This document shows positions 21,103-27,640 of a stretch of DNA of 33,497 nt, in pieces (position 1 is the first letter of the stretch; each line of letters begins with the position of its first letter). Location: positions 1 through 33,497 of IMG/VR virus record IMGVR_UViG_3300020165_000081; one strand, given 5' to 3'. The translations under genes and the position numbers were made by a program. A model generated the notes under the pieces. It did no database searches. It was given only the letters and a program-made list of their open reading frames with translations, and was not told the origin of the DNA. This DNA is from a virus.

Positions 21103-22206
21103 ATGTTTAAAAGGCTAGACCCAAGTGATGTAGATAAAACACCCTTTAAGGTATATAAGGAGTTTACTGTTACTAATGAGGATAGCGGTAGCGGAATCTA
21201 TAACTTTAGAGCGGTAAGCGGAAGTCATCGAAATTATAACCCCGTAAATGACGCATCAAGCGTTTATCCATCCGCTAGCTTTTTTCATAGACCTGCATGG
21301 TTTCTATTAAATCACAGATATTACAGACAAGCAGGATCGGCTGATGAAAGACCACCTATTTCGCAAGAACCAAAAAATACCTCAGAAGCTGGAGGTCCGT
21401 TAGCTAATGCCGGAAGATCTGATACGAGAGGTCAGACAAGCGGCGGTTCAATGAACACCAATGCTCCGGTAAATCCTTATAATAATTTTGCTTCTAATTC
21501 ACCAAACCAATACAGAAATCTACATGCATCAGCATCTGTGATATCGGTTTCTAAAGATATGTATGGTGAGAGAATAAAACCAAAATCTATACAGATAAAG
21601 GATGATAGCACTTCTACCACTGTAAATATAGTGGATGATGGTAATGGTAATTTGTATGATAGCGAATTATCATCAAGCTTTGCTCAGTTTGCTGCTGGTA
21701 ATTTTGAAGATGTTATGAAATCAACCGGAAGCTTTGCTGGAAACGTGTTTTATGAACAAGGTATATTAGTATTTACAAATACGGGTTCAAAATTTATTGA
21801 TGTGGGAACGGGTGTATCTTCTGATGGTTATGCATTAACATATAAAGCGCAGGTTACGATAAACGAATATTCATACTTTTGTGTTATAGGAGAAAATGAA
21901 TATAATGCTACCACAAACATATCAGCTACATTTGAAAAGAGTGGAAGCATAACTGTTTCTGGTTCTGATGCTTGGAGGTTTTTTCCTCCAGGTGATGCTT
22001 TATATCAATCAGGTTCATATAAACATTACTACCAACAAGCATCCCAATATGAAGATTTTGTAAATGATGCTGATTTTTCTCCCTATGTGACTAAGGTTGG
22101 ATTGTATAACGATTTTAATGAATTATTAGCTGTAGGTCAGTTATCATCTCCTATTAAAAATGATAAAGATTTAGCATTAGGATTTGTAGTGAGGTTTGAC
22201 GCATAA
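21103..22206 (+). CDS. virion protein, second of two paralogues
   Basis: The 367-aa protein is homologous by eye to the preceding one. MYGERIKPKSIQIKDDS matches its E++.P strand, FYEQGILVFTN matches YPDLGILVFNG, YSYFCVIGENEYNATTNIS matches HYFCRIPNKQFNFSSNPS, and the final YVTKVGLYNDFNELLAVGQL with VRFDA matches its end. The N-terminal ~120 residues differ and include a Gly/Asn/Pro-rich stretch (NTNAPVNPYNNFASNSPNQY). The C-terminal module may be the part inserted into the virion, with the N-terminus exposed, but that is inference. GGGAG lies 9 nt before the ATG, and the stop overlaps the metallopeptidase start by 1 nt. Confidence 0.75.
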   Translation: MFKRLDPSDVDKTPFKVYKEFTVTNEDSGSGIYNFRAVSGSHRNYNPVNDASSVYPSASFFHRPAWFLLNHRYYRQAGSADERPPISQEPKNTSEAGGPLANAGRSDTRGQTSGGSMNTNAPVNPYNNFASNSPNQYRNLHASASVISVSKDMYGERIKPKSIQIKDDSTSTTVNIVDDGNGNLYDSELSSSFAQFAAGNFEDVMKSTGSFAGNVFYEQGILVFTNTGSKFIDVGTGVSSDGYALTYKAQVTINEYSYFCVIGENEYNATTNISATFEKSGSITVSGSDAWRFFPPGDALYQSGSYKHYYQQASQYEDFVNDADFSPYVTKVGLYNDFNELLAVGQLSSPIKNDKDLALGFVVRFDA

Positions 22207-22706
22207 TGGGTAAGTTTAAAAAGATGATGGAATCTACTACTACAGGTGGTTCACCTGGTCCTAAGGGTTATACTGCTTTCTTAAAGGAGCCGGATGAATG
22301 GGAAGGTAAGAAAAAAAGTCTAGCTTCCTTTTATAAAAAAGCTATGGGTTATTTGTTGGTTGAAAGAGTTGATTATTATGAGATTGCTTTTAATTTGGTT
22401 AGAAAATATAAATTAAATTCTAAGATTCAGATGGGCAGCGGTAAAAACTTTGGAGAGTATATTCCTGAAAAGGATATCATAACACTAAGACCATCTTATA
22501 AAACCTACAAAGAGTTTTTACTAACCATACTGCATGAAATTAAACATGCATTGGATGCTAAAAGATTAGGTAAAAGAAAATTTATGAAAAAGTATACACA
22601 AGCAGGAACAATGGCTCAATATCAAGGACTTGATCCTCACGATGATAATAAATGGGAAGAAAGCGCTGAAAGGTGGGCTGAAAAAGAAATAAAAAAATAT
22701 ATTTGA
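22206..22706 (+). CDS. HExxH zinc metallopeptidase-like protein
   Basis: The 166-aa protein has LLTILHEIKHALDAKRLG with the HExxH motif (H110, E111, H114) and, about 38 residues on, WEESAERWAEKE. This gives a Glu ligand in an ExxAexxA context, as in ImmA/IrrE-like and related gluzincins. The N-terminus is short and basic with no signal peptide. A protein or peptide substrate is likely, for example a virion maturation target, a host repressor or an envelope protein. Its ATG overlaps the previous virion gene's stop (TAATG), so it is made with late structural proteins. That favours a virion-carried or maturation role. It could instead be a catalytically inactive structural homologue. Confidence 0.75.
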   Translation: MGKFKKMMESTTTGGSPGPKGYTAFLKEPDEWEGKKKSLASFYKKAMGYLLVERVDYYEIAFNLVRKYKLNSKIQMGSGKNFGEYIPEKDIITLRPSYKTYKEFLLTILHEIKHALDAKRLGKRKFMKKYTQAGTMAQYQGLDPHDDNKWEESAERWAEKEIKKYI

Positions 22707-22731
22707 ATAACAGGTTTTAACCTTATATATA
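22703..22731 (+). promoter_or_regulatory. probable sigma70-like promoter for the recombination block
   Basis: TTGAAT (22703-22708) and TATATA (22726-22731) are 17 nt apart. The -35 overlaps the metallopeptidase stop. A TATATT at 22728-22733 gives an alternative with a 19-nt spacer. A start near 22738 would produce a ~140-nt leader that includes the AAGTA repeats. The -35 match is moderate, so the call is less sure than that at 112 or 5567. Confidence 0.5.
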
Positions 22732-22736
22732 TTAAC

Positions 22737-22748
22737 AATGTTAACATT
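22737..22748. repeat. 12-bp perfect palindrome AATGTTAACATT
   Basis: The sequence reads the same on both strands and lies just downstream of the predicted -10 (22726-22731), where a repressor would block transcription. The predicted start point falls within it. Nothing else in the window is an identical copy that I noticed. Confidence 0.5.
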
Positions 22749-22817
22749 CAATTCCATTAAAAAATTCTGATAGATTTTTAATAAAATCTTTATGCCTTGA
22801 ATTTTTAATGTGTAATT

Positions 22818-22875
22818 AAGTATTAACAAGTAACAAGTACAAGTATTAATTAACAAGTATTAAGTATTATAAGTA
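22818..22875 (+). repeat. AAGTA / AAGTATTAA repeat cluster in the leader
   Basis: Seven AAGTA units start at 22818, 22828, 22835, 22841, 22855, 22862 and 22871. Three of them extend to AAGTATTAA (22818, 22841, 22855) and several are preceded by AC. The cluster ends 5 nt before the ATG at 22881, which has no Shine-Dalgarno sequence. Possible roles are an iteron-like binding array, a translational operator or an origin element. The sequence alone does not decide. Confidence 0.6.
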
Positions 22876-22880
22876 AAAAT

Positions 22881-23216
22881 ATGAAATCAAGAAGTGCCAA
22901 AAACAAAGGCAAGAGACTTCAAAACAAAGTCAGAGACCTTTTATTAGAATCCTTTACAGACTTAGAGCCCGATGATGTAAAATCAGCAATTATGGGTGAA
23001 TCAGGCGAAGATATTAAATTATCACCAGCGGCTCGAAAACTAATCCCTTATTCATTTGAATGTAAGAATCAAGAAGCATTGAATATATGGGCATCATTAC
23101 AACAAGCAGAAGAAAATAGTGGTGATTACGACCCTGTTCTGATATTTAAAAGAAACAGAACTAAAACTTATGCTGTTATTAACATAGAGAAATTTATAGA
23201 ACTAATAAATGAGTAA
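22881..23216 (+). CDS. PD-(D/E)XK nuclease-like protein, possible Holliday-junction resolvase type
   Basis: The 111-aa protein begins with a basic helix (SAKNKGKRLQNKVRDLLLES) like that of Hjc/VRR-NUC-type enzymes. It continues with GESGEDIKLSP (E43, D44) and FECKN (E60 and K62, the ExK of the fold), and ends with a strand YAVINIEKFIEL. Such nucleases cut branched or flapped DNA. The neighbouring primase and gp47-gp46 fusion suggest recombination-dependent replication. No Shine-Dalgarno is visible before the ATG. The preceding 58 nt hold AAGTA repeats. The end overlaps the primase start by 8 nt. Confidence 0.7.
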   Translation: MKSRSAKNKGKRLQNKVRDLLLESFTDLEPDDVKSAIMGESGEDIKLSPAARKLIPYSFECKNQEALNIWASLQQAEENSGDYDPVLIFKRNRTKTYAVINIEKFIELINE

Positions 23217-24150
23217 TATTGTAAATCTACTGAATAGGGTGATTGGAAACAGAGGCAGACTCTTGAAGAAAGCCAATGAATATATGTATTGGTCTCCGTT
23301 TACCTCACATCACAAACCCAAACTTCAAATAAACATACAAACACAAAAATGGCATTGTTGGATATCAAACCAAGGTGGTCATAAACTATATCAACTATTT
23401 AAAAAATTAAAAGCTAACAAAGAACAATATGATGAGCTTAAAGATATTGTCGGAGAATCCAAATCACTATCATCATTTAAGTCAAAAGTCAAGGAAAAAA
23501 CATTACATTTACCAAAAGAATTTCATCCACTTTGGAATGGGGGAGATAGCATTATTAAACGCCATGCATTAAGTTATATATCTAAGAGGGGTATGGGTAT
23601 GGCTGACATTATCAGATACAATATAGGGTATTGTTCTGAGGGTTTATACACCAATCGTATTATAGTGCCGTCATATGATTGTGAAGGCAATATTAATTAT
23701 TTTGTTGGTAGAGACATTTACAGCGGTGGAATGAAATATAAGAATCCTCCGATATCTAAGGATGTTATTGGATTTGACTTATTTATCAATTGGGATGAGC
23801 CGATTGTATTATGTGAGGGTGTTTTTGATGCGATGGCTATAAAAAGAAATGCCATTCCATTATTTGGTAAAACAATACCTAAAAAATTAATGAAAAAAAT
23901 ATACGAAAAACAGGTTAGAACTATATATATATTATTAGATAGTGATGCTATTAAGGATGCAATAAAATTAACTGATAAGTTAATGAAAAATGGTATCAAT
24001 GTCTATTTTGTAAAGCTTAAAGACGAGGATCCGTCTGATATGGGATTTAAGAAGGTAATCAATCTTATAAAAAAATCAGAGGAAACCTCCTTTTCTGATT
24101 TAATAAGGATGAGATTAAATGGTAAACAAAGAAAATATTTGGAAATTTAA
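23209..24150 (+). CDS. 61: DNA primase (gp61-like) with degenerate zinc ribbon
   Basis: The 313-aa protein (T4 gp61 is about 342 aa) has a TOPRIM core, with E203 in IVLCEGVFDAMAI and the DxD pair D244/D246 in IYILLDSDAIKDA. The N-terminus aligns with the zinc ribbon of T4-type primases (CPFC...CWVC), but here it reads SPFT (29-32) and CWIS (50-53). Three of four Cys are replaced and only C50 remains, so zinc binding is unlikely. The surrounding fold motifs HHKPKLQINI and WHCWISNQGG are kept. It should make primers for lagging-strand synthesis, perhaps with altered template recognition. It overlaps the nuclease gene by 8 nt and the 72-aa ORF by 32 nt. Confidence 0.8.
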   Translation: MSNIVNLLNRVIGNRGRLLKKANEYMYWSPFTSHHKPKLQINIQTQKWHCWISNQGGHKLYQLFKKLKANKEQYDELKDIVGESKSLSSFKSKVKEKTLHLPKEFHPLWNGGDSIIKRHALSYISKRGMGMADIIRYNIGYCSEGLYTNRIIVPSYDCEGNINYFVGRDIYSGGMKYKNPPISKDVIGFDLFINWDEPIVLCEGVFDAMAIKRNAIPLFGKTIPKKLMKKIYEKQVRTIYILLDSDAIKDAIKLTDKLMKNGINVYFVKLKDEDPSDMGFKKVINLIKKSEETSFSDLIRMRLNGKQRKYLEI

Positions 24151-24337
24151 CGATGAAGAATGGAAGGTTCATGTCGATAATATCTCACTCAGCAAAAAAC
24201 TTAGTAGTAGCTTTGGTTTGGTACGCTCTACTATATACTATGAAAATGGTAGATTGGATGAGGAAACGGCTTGGGATTTCATCGTTCCAAATAAACAAAT
24301 AGACAAGGTAAAGAAATTCTTAAAGGATAATACTTGA
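24119..24337 (+). CDS. small protein of unknown function overlapping the primase
   Basis: The 72-aa protein (NIWKFNDEEWKVHVDNISLS near the start) overlaps the primase gene by 32 nt and the SbcD-SbcC gene by 4 nt (TTGA). The overlap and reading through to a TGA that abuts the next start support translation, as does the purine-rich GGATGAGA just before its ATG. It has no recognisable motif, is acidic and mixed in structure, and ends in a lysine-rich helix (KQIDKVKKFLKD). It may be a partner of its neighbours. Confidence 0.6.
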   Translation: MVNKENIWKFNDEEWKVHVDNISLSKKLSSSFGLVRSTIYYENGRLDEETAWDFIVPNKQIDKVKKFLKDNT

Positions 24338-27300
24338 TAAAAGAAAATGTTGTAAAAGTACCTTTTCGTAAACTAAAGCACATACATCATATTTCTGATA
24401 TTCAAATCAGAAACCTAAAGCGACACGTAGAATATGAAGAAGTGTTTGAACGTACTTACGAAGAAGTAAAAAAACATAAAGACAATGCTGTAGCATATAT
24501 CGGTGGAGATATTGCTCATTCAAAAACTGAGATGTCGCCTGAATTAGTCGATCAGTTGTCTCGCTTATTTAAGAATCTGGCGGATATATGTCCTACGATA
24601 ATTATTGCAGGTAATCACGATTGTAACCTAAATAATCTTTCTCGCATGGATGTTCTTACTCCTATCGTAAATAACTTAAAGCACCCTAATCTACATTATC
24701 TAAAAGATAGTGGGATATACAAGTGTGCTGATGTAAAGTTCGTTGTTTGGGACGTGTGGGAAAAGGAAGATGACTATATTGAAGCCAAAGATTTTGAAGG
24801 TGACACAAAGATAGTTCTCTTTCACGGAACTGTTGATAAATCAGAAACAGATTTAGGTTTCTTTTTACCATCCGATGTTAAGATATCTAAGTTCGGCGGA
24901 TATGACTTAGGCTTGTTAGGAGATATCCACAAGAGGCAACATTTAAATAAGAAAGAGACTATATCCTATTGTGGTTCTTTGGTTCAACAGAATCACGGAG
25001 AAGGACTTTCGCATGGCTATCTATTATGGGATGTTCCAAAAAGAAAATCTAAGTATATAGAAGTCAAAAATGATTATGGTTACTATACATTGGATATAAA
25101 CAAAGGTGAGTTTCCAGATTGTCCTGATATGCCAAGCAAAGCTCGTTTGAGGGTGAGGGTTTCAGACACTACTCCATCCCAACTTAAAAAAGCTATGAGC
25201 GTAATTCATAGTAAGTATAATCTAAAAGAGGTATCCGTAACCAAAACAGATTCATTTGGTTCTATTGAAAAGGTTAGAGGACAGAGAATAGCTGTTGGTA
25301 ATGTAATGGATACGGGCTATCAGTATGGGCTTATAGAAGAATATCTAAAGACTAATCATTTTGTAGATGAGAATACTCTTATAGATATTAAGAAAATAAA
25401 CGAAGAACTTAACGACAGATTGCCTGAGGATAACATCAACAGAGGTGTAACTTGGAAGGTTAAGAAGTTAGAGTTCGACAATATGTTTTCTTACGGAGAA
25501 GATAATGTAGTTGACTTTACTAAGCTAACAGGCATTGTGGGTATATTTGCACCAAACGCAAGTGGAAAATCATCCCTATTAGATGCTCTCTCATTCTGTT
25601 TATTTGATAGATCTTCTCGAGCATATAAAGCTATAAATGTTCTCAATAATAAAAAGACTAATTTTAGCTGCAAGGCTACGATAGAGGTTCAAGGTAAAGA
25701 ATATATTATTGAAAGAAGAGGTAAGAAAGGTAGGGGTGGTCACGTAAAGGTAAATGTAGATTTCTACACATTTGCTGATGATGGTGAAAAGATATCCCTA
25801 AATGGAGACCAAAGAAGAACTACTGATGTAAATATTCGTAAGGTTATTGGAACTTATGATGATTTTATTATGACGGCGCTTTCTCTTCAAACTAACTCAA
25901 CTGTTTTTATTGATAAGACACAGAAGGAAAGAAAAGATTTGCTGGCACAATTTATGGGAATTGGTGTATTTGACCAACTCTATACATTAGCAGCAGATGA
26001 AATACACGATGTAAGTTCTCTTTTAAAATCATTTAAGAAAACTAACTATGATGTTCAGTTAGCAGACATAAAGGATAGTCTTGAAGAGAATAAATCAGAT
26101 TTTAAAAATCTTAGTAGTGTAAAAAGAGAGTTTGTTAAAGATAAGAAAGAAGAAGATAAGAGAATAATAGACCTAACCAAACAACTCAGAAAAGTAGATG
26201 AAACTGCTGATAGCATAAGCGAATTGGAAGAAAGAAAAGCTGAACTAACAAATTCATTGGATAGCATTGATGAAAGGGTTGGTGAGATAGCAACTCTATC
26301 CAAGCAATTCTCTGTAGAAGAAACCGAACTAAATGAGAAAATAAACATCTTTATTGAAAATGAGGTGGATAAAAAATTTGCTCAATTAGAACAATACTCA
26401 GATGAAAAATCAAATAATCAAATTGAAATCGATAAGCTCAAAATAGAGGTTAAGAATAAGTTAGATAAGATTGAAAAGCTTGGTGATTTAGAATACGATC
26501 CTAATTGTAATTTCTGTATGAAAAATCCATTTACCATAGATGCTATGGATACTAAAAAGAAACTAAATGACGATAAGTTATTAGCTAATCAGTTTGTCAA
26601 AAAATCTGATAGTTTGGATACCATAATAAACGGTTTATCTCACATAAAATCACACAAGACTCAGATGGATGAATCAATTCAAAATCTTAGCTTGCTTGCA
26701 ACCAATGTTAGTAAATTAGATAGTGAGCAAAAGCTAACCACAGAAAAAAGAAAAAATCTAATAAGTCAATTAGCTATAATTGAGGATAAAATTAATATCT
26801 ACCACGAACAAAAGAAAGATATTATTTTTAATAAAGTTACTCAAAAAGAAATAGATGATGCACAGAGAGATTCTGGTGATTTAGAAACTAAAATTGATGA
26901 GCTTGATTTAAAGATAAATTCTTTAAATGGTGCGATTAAGGTATTAGAAACCAATCGTGAAAACATAATGGCTAGTATAGATAAGGTTGAGGAGTTAGAG
27001 GATAAACATGCGGCTTATCAGTATTATATGGATGCTATTAAACGTGATGGTGTTCCATATGAATTGATATCTAAAGCACTTCCAACAATTGAGGGTGCTA
27101 TAAATGATATACTTGCTCAGATAGTAGATTTCTCTATGATATTAGAAATGGATGGTAAGAATATTAATTGTTATATAGTATATGATGATGATAATGTCTG
27201 GCCTCTTGAACTGAGTAGTGGTATGGAAAGATTCATATCTTCATTAGCTATGCGTGTAGGATTGATAAATGTATCTAATTTACCAGCTGCTAACTTCTTA

Positions 27301-27489
27301 GCTATTGATGAGGGTTGGGGTACAATGGATTCGGATAATCTAAATTCTGTTTATAATCTATTTCAATATCTAAAATCACAATTTCAATTTACAATGATTG
27401 TTTCTCATATAGATTCTATGAGAGATGCTGTGGATACCCTATTAGAAATTAAGAAAGAGAATAACTTTAGTAATGTTTCTTTTGACTAG
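24334..27489 (+). CDS. fused SbcD-SbcC / gp47-gp46-like recombination nuclease-ATPase
   Basis: Residues 1-~330 are a calcineurin-like phosphoesterase: HISDIQ (D22), GGD (57-59), GNHD (93-96), FHGT (H164) and GDIH (196-199). Residues ~375-1051 are an SMC-type ATPase: Walker A APNASGKSS (406-414), a Q-loop region LSLQTNST, a coiled coil broken by CNFC (C725 and C728, the zinc hook), the signature LSSGMERF (960-967), Walker B AIDEG (990-994) and an H-loop SHID. In T4 and E. coli these are two proteins (gp47/gp46, SbcD/SbcC). Here they are one. It would resect DNA ends for recombination-dependent replication. The start is TTG at 24334, overlapping the 72-aa stop, because motif I lies near residue 20 and no in-frame ATG precedes it. 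The end overlaps the minus-strand gene by 23 nt. Confidence 0.88.
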   Translation: MIKENVVKVPFRKLKHIHHISDIQIRNLKRHVEYEEVFERTYEEVKKHKDNAVAYIGGDIAHSKTEMSPELVDQLSRLFKNLADICPTIIIAGNHDCNLNNLSRMDVLTPIVNNLKHPNLHYLKDSGIYKCADVKFVVWDVWEKEDDYIEAKDFEGDTKIVLFHGTVDKSETDLGFFLPSDVKISKFGGYDLGLLGDIHKRQHLNKKETISYCGSLVQQNHGEGLSHGYLLWDVPKRKSKYIEVKNDYGYYTLDINKGEFPDCPDMPSKARLRVRVSDTTPSQLKKAMSVIHSKYNLKEVSVTKTDSFGSIEKVRGQRIAVGNVMDTGYQYGLIEEYLKTNHFVDENTLIDIKKINEELNDRLPEDNINRGVTWKVKKLEFDNMFSYGEDNVVDFTKLTGIVGIFAPNASGKSSLLDALSFCLFDRSSRAYKAINVLNNKKTNFSCKATIEVQGKEYIIERRGKKGRGGHVKVNVDFYTFADDGEKISLNGDQRRTTDVNIRKVIGTYDDFIMTALSLQTNSTVFIDKTQKERKDLLAQFMGIGVFDQLYTLAADEIHDVSSLLKSFKKTNYDVQLADIKDSLEENKSDFKNLSSVKREFVKDKKEEDKRIIDLTKQLRKVDETADSISELEERKAELTNSLDSIDERVGEIATLSKQFSVEETELNEKINIFIENEVDKKFAQLEQYSDEKSNNQIEIDKLKIEVKNKLDKIEKLGDLEYDPNCNFCMKNPFTIDAMDTKKKLNDDKLLANQFVKKSDSLDTIINGLSHIKSHKTQMDESIQNLSLLATNVSKLDSEQKLTTEKRKNLISQLAIIEDKINIYHEQKKDIIFNKVTQKEIDDAQRDSGDLETKIDELDLKINSLNGAIKVLETNRENIMASIDKVEELEDKHAAYQYYMDAIKRDGVPYELISKALPTIEGAINDILAQIVDFSMILEMDGKNINCYIVYDDDNVWPLELSSGMERFISSLAMRVGLINVSNLPAANFLAIDEGWGTMDSDNLNSVYNLFQYLKSQFQFTMIVSHIDSMRDAVDTLLEIKKENNFSNVSFD

Positions 27490-27640
27490 AAAGTAAATTT
27501 TTAGGCTTTCTAACCTCTCTTTTTAATTTTAAAATATGTTGATTAAGCACCGCTGACATTGTGGTGCTTTCTTCATTTACATAATTTCTAAACCATTTTA
27601 TTAAATTCTCATCAATTGTGAAAGAAACTTTCTTTTTCAT
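27467..27640 (-). CDS. ribbon-helix-helix DNA-binding protein
   Basis: The 57-aa protein has a short strand (KKVSFTID), helix A (ENLIKWFRNYV) and helix B (MSAVLNQHILKLKRE), with a basic tail. It matches the Arc/MetJ-type RHH fold, in which dimers insert the strand pair into the DNA major groove. The first ATG of the frame is at 27655, but GGAGAT (27653-27648 on the minus strand) lies before the ATG at 27640, so that start is chosen. A TATAAT-like -10 (about 27661-27656 on the minus strand) is just upstream with no clear -35. It is probably a transcription repressor, perhaps of itself or a neighbour. Its 3' end overlaps the SbcD-SbcC gene by 23 nt, tail to tail. Confidence 0.75.
   Translation of the reverse strand: MKKKVSFTIDENLIKWFRNYVNEESTTMSAVLNQHILKLKREVRKPKNLLSSQKKHY

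Follow-up and report, generated by a model that had tools for sequence, protein, structure and literature searches.

In the leader of T4 gene 32, a folded RNA is followed by UUAAA repeats, rich in A+U, that cover the start region, and gp32 nucleates on the fold and spreads over the repeats (PMC535899, PMC3014915). gp32 occludes 7 nt (PMC10484735). In 2010, the gene 32 pseudoknot was described as possibly the sole viral example in translational autoregulation (PMC3014915). Separately, weakly structured mRNAs can be translated without a Shine-Dalgarno (SD) sequence (PMC3121790). We analysed a leader with likenesses to both of these systems in an uncultured marine T4-like virus. The window, i.e., the whole stretch of DNA analysed, is the 33,497-base record of this virus, whose T4-like genes include a baseplate wedge gene and a gp46/47-type fusion.

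The leader and its relatives

The 174-nt gap at 22707-22880 is flanked on the left by a zincin-like gene (22206-22706), the last of a run of structural genes, and on the right by a gene encoding a PDDEXK/RusA-like nuclease. The gap divides the structural run from a nuclease-primase-gp46/47 operon, in which a 72-aa gene sits between the primase gene and the gp47/46-type fusion. Features of the gap and the surrounding genes are summarized in Table 1.

Table 1. Features of the leader and neighbouring genes, in window coordinates
Feature	Position	Strand	Basis or occurrence
-35-like box TTGAAT, which overlaps the upstream gene's stop codon	22703-22708	+	TTGTAT/TTGAAT conserved in leaders of the clade; the box also precedes gp32 in a related contig
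-10-like element TATATATATTA	22724-22734	+	Conserved across the clade; in related contigs, likewise precedes gp32 and a small number of further genes
Perfect 12-bp palindrome AATGTTAACATT at the expected transcription start	22737-22748	+	Palindrome of at least 10 bp here in most long leaders, in about nine sequences
Predicted RNA domain: helix P1 (22755-22767 with 22799-22810) enclosing hairpin P2 (22772-22778 with 22783-22789)	22755-22810	+	Fold z -2.2 for the window copy; co-variation of P1 arms
Conserved motif GCCTTG, 3' side of internal loop	22794-22799	+	Alignment
Seven AAGTA units	22818-22875	+	In relatives, AAGTA or AAGC arrays according to lineage
Operon gene 1: 111-aa PDDEXK/RusA-like nuclease, without SD	22881-23216	+	PHROG 244, Pfam PDDEXK_15
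Operon gene 2: DnaG-type primase	23209-24150	+	
gp47/gp46 (SbcD/SbcC-like) fusion, further along the same gene run	24334-27489	+	
Arc-like ribbon-helix-helix (RHH) gene	27467-27640	-	

A sequence-only reading of the window had proposed that the gap is a regulatory leader. Relatives of the locus were obtained from two protein searches of IMG/VR, which yielded overlapping sets of 55 and 80 loci. The resulting comparison set comprised about 40 distinct leaders, every leader-bearing record being from the uncultured viruses of IMG/VR; the permutation and shuffle counts reported below only partly remove the relatedness among these sequences. The comparison supported the proposal. The relatives contain a four-part leader, comprising a promoter, a palindrome, a closing RNA helix and an AAGT/AAGC array, in which the layout is kept and the letters change.

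The leader is ∼160-200 nt long in most of the nearer relatives, precedes the same nuclease gene and is confined to related phages. More distant relatives have gaps of 29-80 nt without the leader. The boundary between long and short leaders is not a clean cut in identity: phages at 72-76% nuclease identity can have long leaders of a second kind, type II, and short gaps are found at identities of up to 80%. The type II leaders (L102, L107, L111-L113, L115 and L133) have their own fold and palindrome, the other long leaders being of the window type. The relatives with short gaps often have a promoter-like TTATANTTAT immediately 5' of the ATG; in L035, L046 and L131, for example, it is so near the start codon that transcripts may have almost no leader.

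In annotated and cultured phages, a DNA-level search for the leader returned short, chance-level matches only, and no comparable leader. In the five cultured relatives examined, the nuclease gene adjoins nrdB, endolysin or tail-fibre genes instead. A search of Rfam yielded no family match, the single hit being at chance level and inside a coding region.

Promoter and palindrome

The possible promoter noted in the earlier reading was borne out: -35-like and -10-like boxes precede the palindrome and are conserved in relatives. A consensus promoter scan of the window missed both boxes. In a related 164.8-kb contig, G001, promoters of this class occur at 98000 and 5' of both gp32 and the nuclease operon.

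The window holds 16 perfect palindromes of at least 12 bp, AATGTTAACATT among them. Taken alone, the palindrome at the expected start point is therefore as unremarkable as the others, and it is noteworthy only through comparison. A perfect palindrome of 10-14 bp lies immediately 3' of the -10 element in 33 of the 40 long leaders, versus 11% of mononucleotide shuffles, where the counts include related sequences. The palindrome differs by lineage, the changes being two-sided. Its versions are AATGTTAACATT, AATACTAGTATT and TATGTTAACATA, among which there are double compensating changes; TAACTATAGTTA, TAACTTAAGTTA and ATAACAATTGTTAT, which constitute a second type with swapped centres; and TAATAATATTATTA, GTAACGTTAC and AAGTATACTT. 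In most versions, the central four bases are themselves palindromic (TTAA, CTAG, TATA or AATT). The centre is broken in six leaders (GTTGAC), and an outer pair is broken in a few. A symmetry that extends to the centre suggests a dimeric protein that binds DNA as the putative reader, and the palindrome is probably an operator for a homodimeric protein that controls transcription.

The sequence-only reading had likewise interpreted the palindrome as the operator of a repressor, and the retention of symmetry through changes of letters is in keeping with this idea. Its candidate reader, the Arc-like RHH protein, gained no support and was rejected. More specifically, the predicted DNA-contact strand of this protein, KKYSFTI, is constant in phages with GTTAAC and with ACTAGT palindromes, such that there is no co-variation between the two. 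Moreover, related RHH genes are present where the palindrome is absent (L033, L035 and L045). The likely start of the RHH gene of the window is MKKK at 27640, because GGAG falls inside the longer ORF.

A different role for the palindrome, compatible with the rest of the model presented below, is that of a short 5'-terminal RNA hairpin which stabilizes the transcript. The palindrome sits at the expected first nucleotides, and the gp32 promoter of the related contig has a true inverted repeat at this place, GTTACA(GAATGA)TGTAAC. However, the stems would be just 3-5 bp, and a hairpin loop does not need the palindromic central four bases found in most versions. We consider the hairpin improbable and favour the DNA operator. 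We also rejected a leader peptide, for which the palindrome's ATG would open the reading frame: judged by reading the leaders, indels break the frame and the ATG is absent in the ACTAGT versions.

The folded domain and the AAGY array

Downstream of the palindrome, GGTTNTAAAAAA comes first and its complementary segment last; between them are an A/U-rich hairpin region and then GCCYTG. The N of the 5' segment and its partner change together, as A-U, G-C or U-A. The predicted P1 arms of each leader paired with a mean energy of -6.8 kcal/mol, versus -5.2 kcal/mol with the arms of other phages (z 5.3; none of 5000 permutations was as low). In a sham control using 14 segment pairs, z was at most 1.4. 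Pairing in P1 was also better in plus-strand RNA than in the minus strand (-6.8 vs -5.0 kcal/mol), indicating G-U pairs on the transcript side. The P2 hairpin folds in most leaders and had no detectable co-variation (z 1.1). RNAalifold found no pairs in a MAFFT alignment of the leaders, probably because the P1 arms slip in the alignment; the registers of the arms could be brought into line only by forcing. The whole-leader fold of the window copy was no better than that of shuffles (z -0.46). The evidence for a fold is therefore the P1 arm test.

By eye, complementary segments in the order of an H-type pseudoknot were seen in type II leaders (L102-L133; AAGGTT/AACCTT with AGAAAAAT/ATTTTTCT) and, in a sequence differing from that of type II, in L085 and L093 (TTTCTG/CAGAAA). 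In the same type of reading, an H-type pseudoknot was not evident in the window leader.

The seven AAGTA units before an SD-less ATG, described in the earlier reading, were confirmed. They start at 22818, 22828, 22835, 22841, 22855, 22862 and 22871, with an uneven spacing of 10, 7, 6, 14, 7 and 9 nt, and the final unit ends 5 nt before the ATG at 22881. The same strand of the window contains 48 AAGTA and no second cluster of at least three in 70 nt; when the gap was shuffled 5000 times by mononucleotide, no stretch had more than three units. In the two contigs scanned, the AAGY array occurs once per genome. GGAG or AGGAG stands before many other genes of the window, and in two related contigs about two thirds of the plus-strand genes predicted by crude ORF calling have an SD-like motif. 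Among the 31 listed window-type leaders, an SD match is absent in all except L080.

Similar repeats were also observed elsewhere. Unrelated viral contigs, including L214, L227, L142, L189 and L212, have at least two AACAAGTA-like units directly before an SD-less ATG. Many unrelated contigs among the matches listed carry AACAAGTAACAAGTA, and the AAGTA repeat pattern alone is therefore not diagnostic.

Within the last 55 nt before the ATG of 26 window-type leaders, AAGT/AAGC contains 130 of the 145 G's, as compared to 14.8 ± 3.7 in shuffles (maximum 29). The sequence-only reading had looked to conservation of the units and their spacing in close relatives. The nearest relatives do carry 6-8 AAGTA, but some with a 93% identical resolvase carry AAGC units, and the spacing in window-type leaders, modally 7 nt, varies from 4 to 22 nt. 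When mapped on a nuclease+primase tree, AAGTA and AAGC labels change about four times, at least two of these changes being forced by well-supported branches. Across the leaders compared, the array turns over fast as a whole while AAG is kept. Given that several type II leaders have one AAG only, the array also appears not to be essential everywhere.

The main rival to an operator role of the repeats is that they arose as by-products when replication slipped in an A/T-rich spacer of little function and under little selection. The conserved functions would then reside in promoter, palindrome and folded domain, with the start codon being used by virtue of its weakly structured surroundings, a mode of SD-less translation for which there is precedent (PMC3121790). 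Consistent with slippage, L007 and L008 differ by a single 16-nt unit, and one of the unit-type switches separates L063 (AAGC) from L073 (AAGTA), whose proteins are near-identical. The absence of an array from some type II leaders is equally in line with this account, as is the structure of the array, which matches that of its own shuffles (0.54 vs 0.52 unpaired); on the latter basis, selection for an unstructured array gained no support. By contrast, free slippage would spread other units too, yet AAG outlasts every change from AAGTA to AAGC, the G's are concentrated in AAGY as described above, and all window-type leaders have some AAGY repeats. We regard slippage as possible rather than probable, and a putative translational operator as the best surviving reading of the repeats.

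The repeats had also been suggested to be iterons or to mark an origin near the primase gene. In such a promoter-primed (R-loop) or iteron-type origin, the array would provide iterons or an unwinding element. T4 origins comprise a promoter plus an unwinding element, a layout that the A/T-rich leader resembles; the primase gene is close by, and the promoter-palindrome pattern and the array are single-copy in the scanned contigs that have them. However, neither the unit sequence, AAGTA or AAGC according to lineage, nor the spacing is conserved, and the region is missing from the more distant relatives. In addition, GC skew kept a single sign along the whole of two related contigs (164.8 and 125.6 kb), with no change at the leader, and the co-variation of P1 favours the transcript strand. 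Overall, these data make an origin very unlikely.

Proposed model and relation to known systems

In the model that we favour, the nuclease-primase-gp46/47 operon has its promoter and 5' untranslated leader in the gap. Transcription would be controlled by a homodimeric protein that binds the palindrome at the transcription start. The transcript would fold into a closed domain in which helix P1 encloses an A/U-rich hairpin, and from this domain a tract of AAGU or AAGC, ∼7 nt apart, would extend to the start codon. This tract may stand in for the SD sequence as the ribosome entry region. A single-strand-binding protein, of which a gp32-like protein is the first candidate, would spread from the fold over the tract and stop translation once there is a surplus of replication proteins. 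Comparison of the leaders shows the promoter class, the palindromic symmetry, the P1 co-variation, the AAGY array and the absence of an SD sequence; we infer all of the binding and the direction in which control acts. Taken in its entirety, we give the model an even chance of being correct.

In G001, the gp32 gene lies behind the same promoter class, and its leader (116888-116956) has the inverted repeat described above and an A-rich stretch. This leader retains an SD sequence, and the AAGY array is absent from it. gp32 therefore need not read AAGY. The match between the modal 7-nt spacing of the arrays and the occlusion of gp32 is suggestive only, as plain slippage of a 7-nt unit would give the same result. 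A narrower proposal is that the leader is an operator of gene 32 architecture outside gene 32, with one AAGY contact per ∼7-nt footprint, U/C letters that switch in concert and an SD-less operon switched by a cooperatively spreading single-strand-binding protein. We consider this proposal doubtful. If a spreading protein does read the tract, gene 32-type autoregulation would extend to another operon and to an SD-less start. Irrespective of the reader, the ∼40 leaders represent a natural series with changing letters but constant symmetry and pairing, allowing the contributions of the DNA-binding dimer, the RNA fold and the repeat tract to be separated.

Among known systems, iteron-type origins share with the leader a repeat-containing, A/T-rich DNA close to a replication gene, but the leader differs from them in its unconserved unit and spacing, its absence in more distant relatives and the unchanged skew. 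As in the SD-less starts of weakly structured mRNAs (PMC3121790), the ATG lies in an A/T-rich region; unlike them, the leader has an AAGY array, and the related contigs otherwise use SD sequences widely. T4 RegA operators are also A+U-rich, unstructured and located around the start codon, but are not arrays; a search for RegA in four related contigs, run without a positive control, returned zero matches. With respect to the gene 32 operator of T4, the downstream gene encodes a PDDEXK/RusA-like nuclease and not a single-strand-binding protein, the repeats are AAGY and not UUAAA, the SD sequence is absent and a palindrome is added at the start site. The fold here is a P1/hairpin predicted from sequences alone, versus a pseudoknot in gene 32. 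Nevertheless, the leader resembles the gene 32 operators of T4 and RB69 in having a folded 5' RNA and short repeats that run to the start region of a DNA-replication gene, and in the divergence of these sequences between relatives (PMC535899, PMC3014915).
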